From assembly GCA_030652345.1 (NCBI GenBank), contig JAUSAU010000093.1, positions 1-45,374 of the forward strand: a DNA stretch of 45,374 nt, written 5' to 3'. Of this stretch, positions 12,796-16,486 are shown one piece after another; position 1 is the first letter of the stretch, and each line of letters begins with the position of its first letter. The position numbers and the translations under genes were made by a program. Source of the stretch: Coriobacteriia bacterium. Its GTDB lineage: Bacteria > Actinomycetota > Coriobacteriia > Anaerosomatales > PALSA-660. Under the pieces are notes generated by a model. That model worked only from the letters and a program-made list of their open reading frames with translations, did no database searches and had not been told where the DNA came from.

Positions 12796-12829
12796 CGGAG
12801 GCCCGTCGCGCATATGCGGCGGGCCTCCG
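12796..12829 (+). terminator. 14-bp hairpin after rpsI
   Basis: CGGAGGCCCGTCGC at 12796-12809 pairs with GCGGCGGGCCTCCG at 12816-12829, with one G-U pair and a GCATAT loop. There is no T-tract. It ends the truA-rplM-rpsI block and precedes glmM. Confidence 0.6.
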
Positions 12830-12841
12830 AGCGTGAACGGG

Positions 12842-12888
12842 TATCATCCCAACGCTCCGCAAGCGGCCGTGCTCCGGATGGGGCGTTG
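12842..12888 (+). promoter_or_regulatory. -10 element and folded leader of glmM
   Basis: TATCAT at 12842-12847 is a good -10, although I see no clear -35 at 17 bases. Immediately downstream CAACGCTCC (12850-12858) can pair with GGGGCGTTG (12880-12888), including a U-G pair, enclosing smaller pairings. The promoter and the leader fold are tentative. Confidence 0.35.
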
Positions 12889-12924
12889 CCGGCCCCGAGG
12901 GACGATCGGAGAACGTACACGATC

Positions 12925-14262
12925 ATGGGACGACTCTTCGGTACCGACGGCGTACGCGGCATAGCGAACGCCGAACTCACGCCCGAACTCGCATTCCGCC
13001 TCGGCGAGGCTGCGGGCCGCTTCCTGTGCGATCGCGGCCGCGGCCGCATCGTGGTCGGTAAGGACACGCGCCGCAGCGGCGACATGCTCGAGGCGGCGCT
13101 CGTCGCCGGCATCTGCTCCGCAGGATCCGACGCGCTCACCTGCGGTATCGTCCCCACACCGGCCGTGGCCTTCCTGACCCGCGAACTCGGCGCCGACGGC
13201 GGGGTCGTCATCTCGGCTTCGCACAACGCTGCGGAGTACAACGGCATCAAGTTCTTCAGCCGTGACGGTTTCAAGCTCCCGGACGAGTTCGAGGACGAGA
13301 TCGCCGAGTTCGTCGAAGAGGGTTCGCGATCGACCGCGAGGCCCACGGGGCTCGGTGTCGGCCGCGCGCACGCGCTGGCCGACGCCGCCGACCGCTATGT
13401 CGCGCATGTCGTCGCATCGGTCCCGGAGCGCCTCGATGGTGTGCGCATTGCGCTCGACTGCGGTCACGGCGCCGCGGCGAGGACGAGCGTGCACGCTCTC
13501 GAGGCACTGGGCGCGGACATCGTCGCGATCAACTGCGACTGGGACGGCATGGACATCAACGACGGCTGCGGTTCGACGCATCTCGGGCCGCTCGTCGAGC
13601 TGGTCCGGTCGAGCGGCGCCGCGCTCGGGCTGGCGCATGACGGCGACGCGGATCGTGTGCTCGCCGTCGATGAGACGGGTGCGGAGGTCGACGGGGACCA
13701 GATCATGGCGGTGTGCGCCGCGCAGCTCAAGCGCGAAGCCCGCCTGCCGCACGACACCGTCGTGGGCACCGTGATGGCGAACCTCGGCTTCGACGTCGCC
13801 ATGAAGGAGCTCGGCATCGCGCTCGTCAAGACCAAGGTCGGCGACCGCTACGTCCTCGATCAGATGCGCACGATGGGCGCCACGCTCGGCGGGGAGCAGT
13901 CCGGCCATATCATCTTCCTCGAGCACGCGACGACCGGCGACGGACTCGCGACCGGTCTGCAGCTCGCCCGTGTGATGAAGGTGACCGGCAAGCCGCTCTC
14001 GGAACTGACCAAGGTGATGCACCGCTATCCGCAGGTGCTCGTCAACGTCCGGGTCGGGGACAAGGCGCGCCTTCCGGCCAGTGCGGCGATCGCGCGCGCG
14101 GTGGCCGCTGAGGAAGAGAGACTCGGCGTGACGGGACGGGTGCTCGTACGGCCATCCGGCACCGAGCCACTCGTGCGCGTCATGGCGGAGGCTGCTGATC
14201 TGGACGTCGCCCGGAGCACGGTCGACCGTCTGGTCGAGGTCGTGAAGGCCGAGCTGGGGTAG
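12925..14262 (+). CDS. glmM: Phosphoglucosamine mutase
   Basis: This 445-residue enzyme converts glucosamine-6-phosphate to glucosamine-1-phosphate for UDP-GlcNAc and peptidoglycan. The phosphoserine is S99 in ISASHNAAEYNGIKFF. The metal loop AHDGDADRVLAVD and the phosphate-binding RPSGTEPLVRVM near the C-terminus are intact. I chose ATG 12925 because MGRLFGTDGVRGIAN is the family N-terminus; upstream in-frame sequence does not resemble the family. The ribosome-binding site (GGAG at about 12908) is rather distant. It precedes glmS, which makes its substrate. Confidence 0.97.
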   Translation: MGRLFGTDGVRGIANAELTPELAFRLGEAAGRFLCDRGRGRIVVGKDTRRSGDMLEAALVAGICSAGSDALTCGIVPTPAVAFLTRELGADGGVVISASHNAAEYNGIKFFSRDGFKLPDEFEDEIAEFVEEGSRSTARPTGLGVGRAHALADAADRYVAHVVASVPERLDGVRIALDCGHGAAARTSVHALEALGADIVAINCDWDGMDINDGCGSTHLGPLVELVRSSGAALGLAHDGDADRVLAVDETGAEVDGDQIMAVCAAQLKREARLPHDTVVGTVMANLGFDVAMKELGIALVKTKVGDRYVLDQMRTMGATLGGEQSGHIIFLEHATTGDGLATGLQLARVMKVTGKPLSELTKVMHRYPQVLVNVRVGDKARLPASAAIARAVAAEEERLGVTGRVLVRPSGTEPLVRVMAEAADLDVARSTVDRLVEVVKAELG

Positions 14263-14290
14263 GCGCACCTGTCATCGAACCGACACCGAT

Positions 14291-14326
14291 GCGGCCCGCC
14301 TCGTCTGCTACGATGAGGCGGGCCGC
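14291..14326 (+). terminator. Hairpin after glmM
   Basis: GCGGCCCGCCTC at 14291-14302 pairs perfectly with GAGGCGGGCCGC at 14315-14326 around a 12-base loop. Within the loop TGC plus TACGAT (14309-14314) resembles an extended -10, so terminator and glmS promoter may overlap. No T-tract follows directly. Confidence 0.55.
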
Positions 14327-14361
14327 CGCCTTTCCACATCCACCGGCGGCGGGAAGGGAGG

Positions 14362-14396
14362 CGTGTCACGGATCTGACGCACGGACGCATGACACG
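14362..14396 (+). other. Inverted repeat abutting the glmS ribozyme cleavage site
   Basis: CGTGTCA at 14362-14368 is repeated inverted as TGACACG at 14390-14396, ending one base before the predicted cleavage site A14397/G14398. It could cap the 3' end of the 5' cleavage product or be a protein-binding site. Minimal glmS ribozymes do not need this upstream sequence. Confidence 0.45.
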
Positions 14397-14556
14397 AGCG
14401 CCGGGACTGCGCGGTACGGCCACGCGTAGTCGACGAGGCGGGAGCTTATCGAAACATTCGGCGGATGGCTCCCCGGCACACGTCCCGATGTCGACATCGG
14501 CTCCGACAAATCCTGCGGGCGACTGCAGGGACAAAGCGGACCGGATTCGGGAATCC
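14397..14556 (+). ncRNA. glmS ribozyme: glmS glucosamine-6-phosphate-activated ribozyme (riboswitch)
   Basis: The self-cleaving RNA lies about 100 nt upstream of glmS. The cleavage-site core AGCGCC is at 14397-14402, with scission expected between A14397 and G14398. P1 forms between ACTGCGCG (14406-14413) and CGCGTAGT (14423-14430), followed by the invariant CGACGAGG. P2 pairs GGGAGC with GCTCCC and encloses the conserved TTATCGAAACATTCGGCGGA at 14447-14466. P3 is CCGATGTCGACATCGG, and P4 contains CCTGC..GGGCGACT..GCAGG followed by the conserved ACAAAGC. In this class glucosamine-6-phosphate is the cofactor, so product excess cleaves the glmS mRNA. The 3' boundary is approximate. Confidence 0.9.
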
Positions 14557-14659
14557 AGCACACACGTGCACATCTCCGACGAACGAGGGCGGATCCATCG
14601 CGTCTGCGCCCGCGCATACCGTCGGCATGCCCTGATACCGCGACCGGGAGGTCATTCAT

Positions 14660-16486
14660 ATGTGTGGAATCGTCGGATACGTCGGGCCCCAGCGTGCGAC
14701 CGACGTCTTGATCGCCGGTCTTGCCCGGCTGGAGTACCGCGGCTATGACTCGGCCGGCGTTGCGATCATCGACCACGGGGAGCTCACCGTCGCGCGGCGC
14801 GTCGGCAAGCTCGTCAACCTGAGCGACGCACTCGCCGGCCATCCCGTACCCGGCTCCACGGGCATCGGCCATACCCGCTGGGCGACCCACGGCCGCCCCT
14901 CGGAGGAGAACGCGCATCCGCATACCGACTGCACGGGCCGCATAGCCGTCGTGCACAACGGCATCATCGAGAACTACGCCGAACTCCGGGACGAGCTGGC
15001 GTCCGCCGGCCATATCCTGCGTTCCGAGACCGACACGGAGACCGTCGCCCACCTGATCGAGAGTTACTACGACGACGATCTGCTGACGGCCGTCCGCAAG
15101 ACCATCAAGCGTCTCTCGGGCAGCTACGCGCTCGCGATCGTGCATCTCGACCGGCCCGACCAGATCGTGGCCGCACGCAGGGATTCCCCGCTGATCATCG
15201 GCCTCGGCGTCGACGAGAACATCGTGGCGAGTGACATCCCCGCGGTGCTCGAGTACACGCGCGACGTGCTCGTGCTTCACGACGATCAGATCGCCGTCGT
15301 CACGCCGGGTTCGGTCGCGGTCTTCGATCTTGAAGGAGCAGCCGTCACCGACCCCGAGACGATGCTGGTCGAGTGGGACCTCGACGCCGCCGAGAAGGGC
15401 GGCTACGACGACTTCATGCTGAAGGAGATCTTCGAGCAGCCCAAGGCGCTGCGCGAGACGCTTCGCGGCCGGATGCTGGACGGCGAGGTCCAGCTCTCCG
15501 AGCTTCAGATGACGCCCCAGGAAGTCGCGGGGATCAACCGTGTCTTCATCATCGCGTGCGGTACGTCCTATCACGCCGCGCTCGTCGCCAAGAACCTCAT
15601 CGAGGCGTGGGCGCGCATCCCGGTGGAGGTCGACGTGTCGAGCGAGTTCCGGTACCGGGATCCGATCGTCGATGACGAGACGCTCGTGGTCGCTGTCACG
15701 CAGTCGGGCGAGACGGCCGACACGCTCGCGGGCGTACGCGAGGCGCGCGAGCGTGGCGCGAAGGTCATTGCGATCACCAACGTCGTCGGATCGCGGGTGA
15801 CTCGCGAATCGGATGGCGTGATCTACACGCACGCCGGACCGGAGATCGGCGTCGCCGCCACGAAGACGTTCACGGCTCAGATCGCGGCGCTCACCGTGCT
15901 GGCGCTCAAGCTGGCACAGGCGAGGGGCGCCCTCTCCGATGAGCGGGTCGCCTCGTTGTGGGAGGAGATCGTGACGCTTCCCGATGTCGTGGAGGCGATC
16001 CTCCAGGACCTCTCCTCGCTTGAGGAGTGCGCGGCGGCGTACAAGGATGCCTGCTCGTCGCTCTTCCTGGGGCGCGGCGTCGGCGTGGCTGTCGCGATGG
16101 AGGGCGCGCTCAAACTCAAGGAGATCTCGTACATCCACGCGGAGGCGTATGCGGCAGGCGAGATGAAGCATGGCCCGATCGCGCTGATCACCACGGAGGT
16201 CCCGGTCGTGTGCGTCGCCACGCAGGGGCACACGTACGAGAAGGTCGTCAGCAACATCCAGGAGGTGCGCGCACGCGGCGCGGAGGTCATCGTGGTGGCG
16301 ACGGCCGGCGACGAGGACATCCGCAAGCATGCGGAGCACGTGCTGCACATACCCCGGACGAGCGAGGCGTTGTCGGCCATACCCGCCTCGGTGCCGCTCC
16401 AGCTGCTCTCGTACTACATCGCGAAACTGCGTGGCTGCAACGTCGACCAGCCGCGCAACCTCGCCAAGTCCGTGACGGTCGAGTAG
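14660..16486 (+). CDS. glmS: Glutamine-fructose-6-phosphate aminotransferase (isomerizing)
   Basis: This 608-residue enzyme makes glucosamine-6-phosphate from fructose-6-phosphate and glutamine. C2 of MCGIVGYVG is the N-terminal nucleophile of the glutaminase domain (about 1-225). Two SIS sugar-isomerase domains follow (around 285-420 and 455-595), with ACGTSYHA and TQSGETADT motifs. The C-terminus QPRNLAKSVTVE carries the conserved lysine. GGGAGG at 14646-14651 precedes ATG 14660. A glmS ribozyme in the leader gives product feedback on mRNA stability. Confidence 0.98.
   Translation: MCGIVGYVGPQRATDVLIAGLARLEYRGYDSAGVAIIDHGELTVARRVGKLVNLSDALAGHPVPGSTGIGHTRWATHGRPSEENAHPHTDCTGRIAVVHNGIIENYAELRDELASAGHILRSETDTETVAHLIESYYDDDLLTAVRKTIKRLSGSYALAIVHLDRPDQIVAARRDSPLIIGLGVDENIVASDIPAVLEYTRDVLVLHDDQIAVVTPGSVAVFDLEGAAVTDPETMLVEWDLDAAEKGGYDDFMLKEIFEQPKALRETLRGRMLDGEVQLSELQMTPQEVAGINRVFIIACGTSYHAALVAKNLIEAWARIPVEVDVSSEFRYRDPIVDDETLVVAVTQSGETADTLAGVREARERGAKVIAITNVVGSRVTRESDGVIYTHAGPEIGVAATKTFTAQIAALTVLALKLAQARGALSDERVASLWEEIVTLPDVVEAILQDLSSLEECAAAYKDACSSLFLGRGVGVAVAMEGALKLKEISYIHAEAYAAGEMKHGPIALITTEVPVVCVATQGHTYEKVVSNIQEVRARGAEVIVVATAGDEDIRKHAEHVLHIPRTSEALSAIPASVPLQLLSYYIAKLRGCNVDQPRNLAKSVTVE

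Follow-up and report, generated by a model that had tools for sequence, protein, structure and literature searches.

The glmS ribozyme between glmM and glmS

We analysed a stretch of 45,374 nucleotides, hereafter the window, in which glmM, encoding phosphoglucosamine mutase (12814–14262), and glmS, encoding glutamine--fructose-6-phosphate transaminase (14660–16486), lie on the + strand together with all of the features described below. Both genes were recognised by their family profiles (TIGR01455 with 560.1 bits, cut-off 447.55, and TIGR01135 with 846.8 bits, cut-off 418.05, respectively), in agreement with a preliminary description of this DNA, which had placed a glmS ribozyme next to glmM and upstream of a genuine glmS. 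The ribosome-binding site of glmS, GGGAGG, was read from the sequence at 14646–14651. A cmscan search of the whole window with 4227 Rfam families yielded the glmS ribozyme family RF00234 as the sole match over its gathering score. As the outcome of the covariance-model search that the preliminary description had proposed, the match covers 14386–14554 with 95.4 bits against a gathering score of 37 (E 4.3e-21), and it is full-length, extending over model positions 1–167 of 167 without truncation.

The hallmarks on which the first assignment relied are indeed present, namely AGCGCC at 14397–14402, GACGAGG at 14432–14438, TTATCGAAACATTCGGCGGA at 14446–14465, a P3 hairpin at 14474–14493, and GGCGACT and ACAAAGC in P4.1/P4, and the conserved core letters AGCGCC, GACGAGG, ATCGA, TCGGCGG and ACAAA all occur in the window and agree with the Rfam consensus. 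The predicted cut between A14397 and G14398 is likewise consistent with the RF00234 match. The start of the span proposed earlier, 14397–14556, stood, but its end did not: the pairing stops at 14552, in P3.1, which gives a ribozyme of 14397–14552. The element is, as judged from its sequence, a glmS ribozyme of the known class, and the identification was right.

The secondary structure was examined in an alignment of 50 copies with 45 named pairs, comprising the window and the 49 copies found by the covariance model in the order of the MAG Actinomycetes bacterium LH_M22 (G001, locus L001), whose GlmS, 80% identical to that of the window, is the nearest among the named relatives. As a result, changes on both sides were found in 30 of the 45 pairs, against 19.4 in shuffles, and 263 cells were changed on both sides, against 90.4. 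A standard pair was present in 92.3% of the cells, against 81.9% in shuffles, a percentage that leans towards the structure, since the window, with the register it takes in the relatives, served to define the pairs. All five measures exceeded those of every one of the 500 shuffles, the shuffle control being inflated by the kinship among the aligned rows, and only 29–45% of the cells were paired when the partners were slid by 1–3 columns.

Clear covariation was seen in P1 (14405–14413 with 14423–14431; changes on both sides in 6 of 9 pairs), P2 (14440–14445 with 14468–14473; 5 of 6 pairs, 100% of cells paired), the P3.1 pseudoknot between the P3 loop, 14483–14488, and the tail, 14547–14552 (5 of 6 pairs, 85.3%), P4 (14498–14505 with 14537–14544; 7 of 8 pairs, 90.5%) and the P4.1 hairpin at 14512–14529, with its GCGA loop at 14519–14522 (5 of 7 pairs, 89.1%). 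The P3 hairpin (14474–14478 with 14489–14493) covaries weakly, in 2 of 5 pairs, with 98.8% of its cells paired. Since the four pairs of the core pseudoknot, CGCC at 14399–14402 with GGCG at 14460–14463, are invariant in all 50 copies, covariation is uninformative on this helix, which we take to be P2.2 in the usual naming.

Some details are particular to the window copy. Its P1 holds a G14409–U14427 pair where all 49 relatives have G–C, and T14427 is its sole departure among the columns that are unanimous in the 49 relatives; its P4 is drawn with either one bulged C or two mismatches. The core letters are the same as in the relatives; a divergent ligand affinity, as raised in the preliminary description, is conjectural. 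A perfect 16-base palindrome, CCGATGTCGACATCGG, occupies 14485–14500, spanning P3, the junction and P4, and occurs in none of the 49 other aligned rows. A plain fold of 14398–14546 favours the hairpin 14485–14490/14495–14500, which competes with P3, P3.1 and P4; the palindrome is a possible misfolding trap. An inverted repeat directly 5′ of the cut, CGTGTCA/TGACACG (14362–14368 with 14390–14396), was also considered and taken as chance; among the 50 loci, a 7-base repeat was present only in the window and a 6-base one only in L111, and its fold z was −0.32.

The gene context is shared with the relatives. A GlmS-coding stretch lies downstream on the same strand in all 50 order-level copies, including the window, and the gap between the end of the ribozyme match and the glmS start, 105 bases in the window, has a median of 109 bases (49 of the 50 loci, those with a start found; L096 was dropped). 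Within the DNA examined, a GlmM-coding stretch was found upstream in 43 of the 50 loci, in some of them, such as L177 and L182, more than 1 kb away. The presence and completeness of the ribozyme, its covariation and its gene context are established by these analyses, as is its distribution by those that follow.

Distribution of the ribozyme and its nagB-linked copies

The glmS ribozyme class is best known from Bacillota, and its occurrence in this genome had been called phylogenetically notable. This did not hold up, since the ribozyme scored over the cut-off in 49 of the 69 genomes in the order of LH_M22, in 64 of 396 in its class and in 75 of 396 in the phylum sample, in searches with stricter filters by which weak matches may be lost. 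The class sample is that of LH_M22 and contains Collinsella tanakaei (G006), and from this we take it to be Coriobacteriia, in line with the Coriobacteriia-like genome suggested by the preliminary description. Matches in the class came from 65 genomes, with all of their loci taken; that of G139 (L206) was partial, with 26.4 bits below the cut-off, and was excluded from the counts. The ribozyme was also found in 67 of the 148 genomes in the class of an Acidimicrobiia MAG and in 77 of the 119 in the phylum of a Clostridia MAG. The glmS ribozyme class is thus ordinary in this order of actinobacteria, to which the window adds one more member. Our literature searches returned no match that pairs the glmS ribozyme with Coriobacter or Eggerthella, and the excerpts of PMC11602151, PMC2258182 and PMC3766115 contain no actinobacterial distribution of the ribozyme.

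Among the 69 genomes of the order, the ribozyme was present in 49 of the 57 with a GlmS of at least 70% identity, and in none of the seven with a divergent GlmS (50–52%) or of the five without a GlmS-grade match. The ribozyme of LH_M22 itself scores 111.5 bits, and the GlmS proteins of G122 and G051 are 81% identical to that of the window. Since the ribozyme goes with the orthologous GlmS, it looks inherited within the order, with a few losses. A GlmS tree with 69 rows places the window in a starred clade of 32, and all but two of these (30) have the ribozyme before glmS. The label of the tree, a ribozyme in front of glmS, needs five changes overall, and at least four by the starred branches; L011, L013 and L018 carry the label "no", and a later scan of their loci found no ribozyme, and for L004 and L010 the scan covered the fetched locus only. 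Across the whole tree there is room for several origins. Recent horizontal gain by this genome is not favoured, as the ribozyme follows GlmS both in the order and in the tree.

The eight relatives that have an orthologous GlmS and no ribozyme (L269–L276) show that the ribozyme is not indispensable. Neither GACGAGG nor the full core was found in any of their eight leaders, and TATAAT is present letter for letter in seven of them, in five cases 77–80 bases before glmS.

Outside the order, one group of 15 Coriobacteriia genomes carries 16 ribozymes, nine before glmS and seven before nagB. The nagB-side copies (L195, L197, L199, L201, L202 and L205, plus the ribozyme at 7592 of L200, its second) come from seven of the 15 genomes, stand directly ahead of the gene and match RF00234 over its full length with 62–72 bits, and GlmS is over the TIGR01135 cut-off in all 15. 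The NagB of L200 scores 381.3 bits with TIGR00502, and in L200 and L205 nagB is followed by a GlmU-like acetyltransferase gene (below the curated cut-offs) and then by glmM. In G404 (L200, 5281–7592), ribozyme, glmS, ribozyme and nagB stand in tandem, a possible trace of a ribozyme duplication between glmS and nagB. Since nagB encodes glucosamine-6-phosphate deaminase, an enzyme that consumes glucosamine-6-phosphate, the sense of a putative switch at this position is ambiguous. The adjoining UDP-GlcNAc genes may explain the placement, and the nagB copies raise the question of whether the same RNA also controls this deaminase as well as a UDP-GlcNAc operon.

Predicted promoter and proposed control of glmS

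Just after glmM, a strong hairpin of 15 pairs was predicted at 14291–14326 (−34.7 kcal/mol and z −6.53 for the fold of 14288–14340), and it is possibly a terminator. A simple terminator scan of 14200–14700 reported none, presumably because the hairpin has no T run. A comparison of the relatives revealed a predicted extended −10 box, TGCTACGAT, at 14306–14314, with transcription predicted to start near 14321. Across the 50 order-level loci, the distance from the best −10 box to the cut is 55–94 bases, and 46 of these boxes have a TG ahead of them. The box of the window is weak alone, as its own score was reached by 5% of shuffles, and a plain sigma-70 scan of 14200–14700 found no site. Its distance from the cut, 89–94 bases, is shared by the four closest tree rows (G100, G122, G124 and G138), which supports it, whereas that in most other order-level loci is 55–70 bases. 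The loop of the hairpin at 14291–14326 overlaps the predicted −10 box, and termination and initiation may therefore overlap at this site.

The best explanation of the locus is, almost certainly, that the ribozyme shuts down the glmS message of which it is part. This transcript would start near the predicted 14321 and carry the folded ribozyme, and plentiful glucosamine-6-phosphate, the product of GlmS, would bind the ribozyme. With the RNA then cut at A14397/G14398, the downstream piece, which holds glmS, would obtain a 5′-hydroxyl end and be degraded, probably by RNase J, while the 5′ piece of about 77 bases would be lost together with the Shine–Dalgarno-like run described below. The ligand, the cleavage and the decay in this scheme follow what would be expected of the ribozyme class. 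A profile that we take to represent the RNase J family, TIGR00649, scored over its cut-off in all six relatives searched and in 9 of the 14 genomes used as controls. In B. subtilis, according to the excerpt of the review PMC3997798, the ribozyme cut leaves a 5′ OH and exposes the message to RNase J1.

The Shine–Dalgarno-like run and comparison with known systems

The 5′ piece ahead of the cut contains a Shine–Dalgarno-like run, AAGGGAGG, at 14354–14361, which is a candidate stabiliser similar to the STAB-SD of cry3A, described in the excerpt of PMC4113751 as an SD-like, non-translating 5′ sequence that blocks RNase J1. We thus weighed a variant of the scheme in which the same ribozyme is combined with such a leader element, which would dock the 30S subunit and block RNase J, so that its amputation would matter as much as the 5′-hydroxyl end. 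With the evidence discussed below pointing in both directions, we regard this variant as tentative and rather unlikely, even though the cry3A precedent speaks for it.

In its favour, a strict run lies between the predicted start and the cut in 33 of the 50 order-level leaders, including that of the window, against 8% in dinucleotide shuffles and one of 50 on the opposite strand, and in all 16 leaders of the other Coriobacteriia, against 12% in shuffles and none of 16 on the opposite strand. Between the ribozyme and glmS, outside the glmS binding site, the run was present in only four of 49 control stretches, and it was absent from the eight glmS leaders of this order that have no ribozyme. Among the G+C-rich Acidimicrobiia, 7 of 20 leaders contain a strict run, compared with 11% of shuffles, as do 10 of 30 Bacillota leaders, compared with 13%. 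For other actinobacterial copies, however, no such trend was observed, with runs in none of the 12 A+T-rich Acidimicrobiia leaders and in 2 of the 29 of the phylum sample, against 25% in shuffles. These leaders came from the best-scoring 29 of 75 phylum-sample genomes, the best-scoring 30 of 77 Bacillota genomes, and the best-scoring 30 of 67 Acidimicrobiia genomes plus two further ones.

Pairing with the anti-Shine–Dalgarno tail was computed as well. The computed duplex of the upstream stretch of the window has −18.6 kcal/mol, which none of 100 shuffles equalled, and 30 of 50 order-level leaders, 9 of 16 from other Coriobacteriia and 19 of 30 from Bacillota paired better than 95% of their shuffles, against 4 of 49, 1 of 16 and 3 of 30 in the respective control stretches. 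In contrast, this was the case for only 3 of 32 Acidimicrobiia and 0 of 29 phylum-sample leaders. The contrast also shrinks under a looser score, which was reached in 44 of 50 leaders of the order (38% in shuffles), in 16 of 16 from other Coriobacteriia (55% in shuffles, 8 of 16 control stretches) and in 23 of 30 from Bacillota (49% in shuffles, 18 of 30 control stretches). For the pairing, the start codons and the looser score, the run positions in L088, L102 and L188 were set by hand. The distance from the strict run to the cut is 35 bases (sd 5.7) and that from the predicted start to the run 23 bases (sd 8.4; n = 33), the latter being 33 bases in the window, where the start is likewise a prediction. 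Against a docking role, the run shows no greater predicted openness than the remaining leader (0.54 versus 0.51, higher in 17 of 33). All of these counts come from related copies, which are not independent, and depend on predicted transcription starts.

A non-translating element would be expected to stand apart from start codons, and the stretch 4–11 bases past the scored run holds few of them: 3 in the 44 order-level copies, where 13.0 would be expected, and 1 in 16 of the other Coriobacteriia, where 5.7 would be, with expectations that cover promoter positions too. By another yardstick, positions 12–24 past the run, the order holds 18 start codons, or about 11 per eight positions against the 3 seen; the other Coriobacteriia hold none there, and therefore show no depletion. 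When the strict run was used as the anchor, start codons were found 4–12 bases on in 3 of 33 order-level copies (7.2 expected), but in 5 of 16 of the other Coriobacteriia (4.5 expected), which again show no depletion and to this extent weaken the stabiliser variant.

The last figure, a number as expected, would also be compatible with a short leader peptide that uses the run as its ribosome-binding site and is translated as far as the ribozyme or into it. An ATG lies 6–7 bases past the run in 4 of the 30 Bacillota copies examined, and in the window a GTG at 14363, one base past the run, would yield MSRI. Nevertheless, we consider a leader peptide improbable, given that start codons at the spacing of 4–11 are below expectation in Coriobacteriia, that ATG accounts for a single case among the 60 copies with a run, and that the window has no start codon at this spacing past 14354–14361. 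The four Bacillota loci are L303, L306, L293 and L310, in which the run and the ATG lie upstream of the ribozyme; the short frames of L303 and L306 end 3–5 bases before the cut.

A decayed ribozyme, which would have kept the family resemblance and lost the cutting, is highly improbable, since the bulged P4, the G–U pair in P1 and the competing palindrome that might suggest it are set against a full-length match of 95.4 bits and a single departure from the unanimous columns of the 49 relatives, at which the pair is kept.

Switching of glmS by its own ribozyme therefore remains the preferred reading. Its extension to a two-part device in Coriobacteriia, and perhaps in many Bacillota, in which the glucosamine-6-phosphate-triggered cut would remove a non-translating, SD-like shield against RNase J, is drawn by analogy and is slightly less probable than the stabiliser variant itself. 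If the SD-like element is a stabiliser, it would supply a testable second half of the upkeep and loss of the glmS mRNA.

Compared with the known glmS ribozymes of RF00234, the window copy shares the full-length match, AGCGCC at the cut, the core pseudoknot, P3.1, P4/P4.1 and the site before glmS, and its core letters show no difference from those of the Rfam alignment, whereas it differs in its 66% G+C, and the P4 bulge and the local palindrome are particular to it. It resembles the other order-level ribozymes (48 loci and L001 of LH_M22) in its site before glmS, its extended −10 box and its SD-like run; unlike most of them, the window, G100, G122, G124 and G138 have a −10 box that lies farther from the cut (89–94 versus 55–70 bases). 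As for the combination of STAB-SD and glmS in the literature, STAB-SD appears among the matches listed only in a reference list. As in the cry3A STAB-SD (PMC4113751), the run of the window lies near the predicted 5′ end of the leader, and it has no start codon at a working distance. The window differs from cry3A in that a ribozyme cut site follows its run, for which stabilisation and 30S binding are candidate roles.
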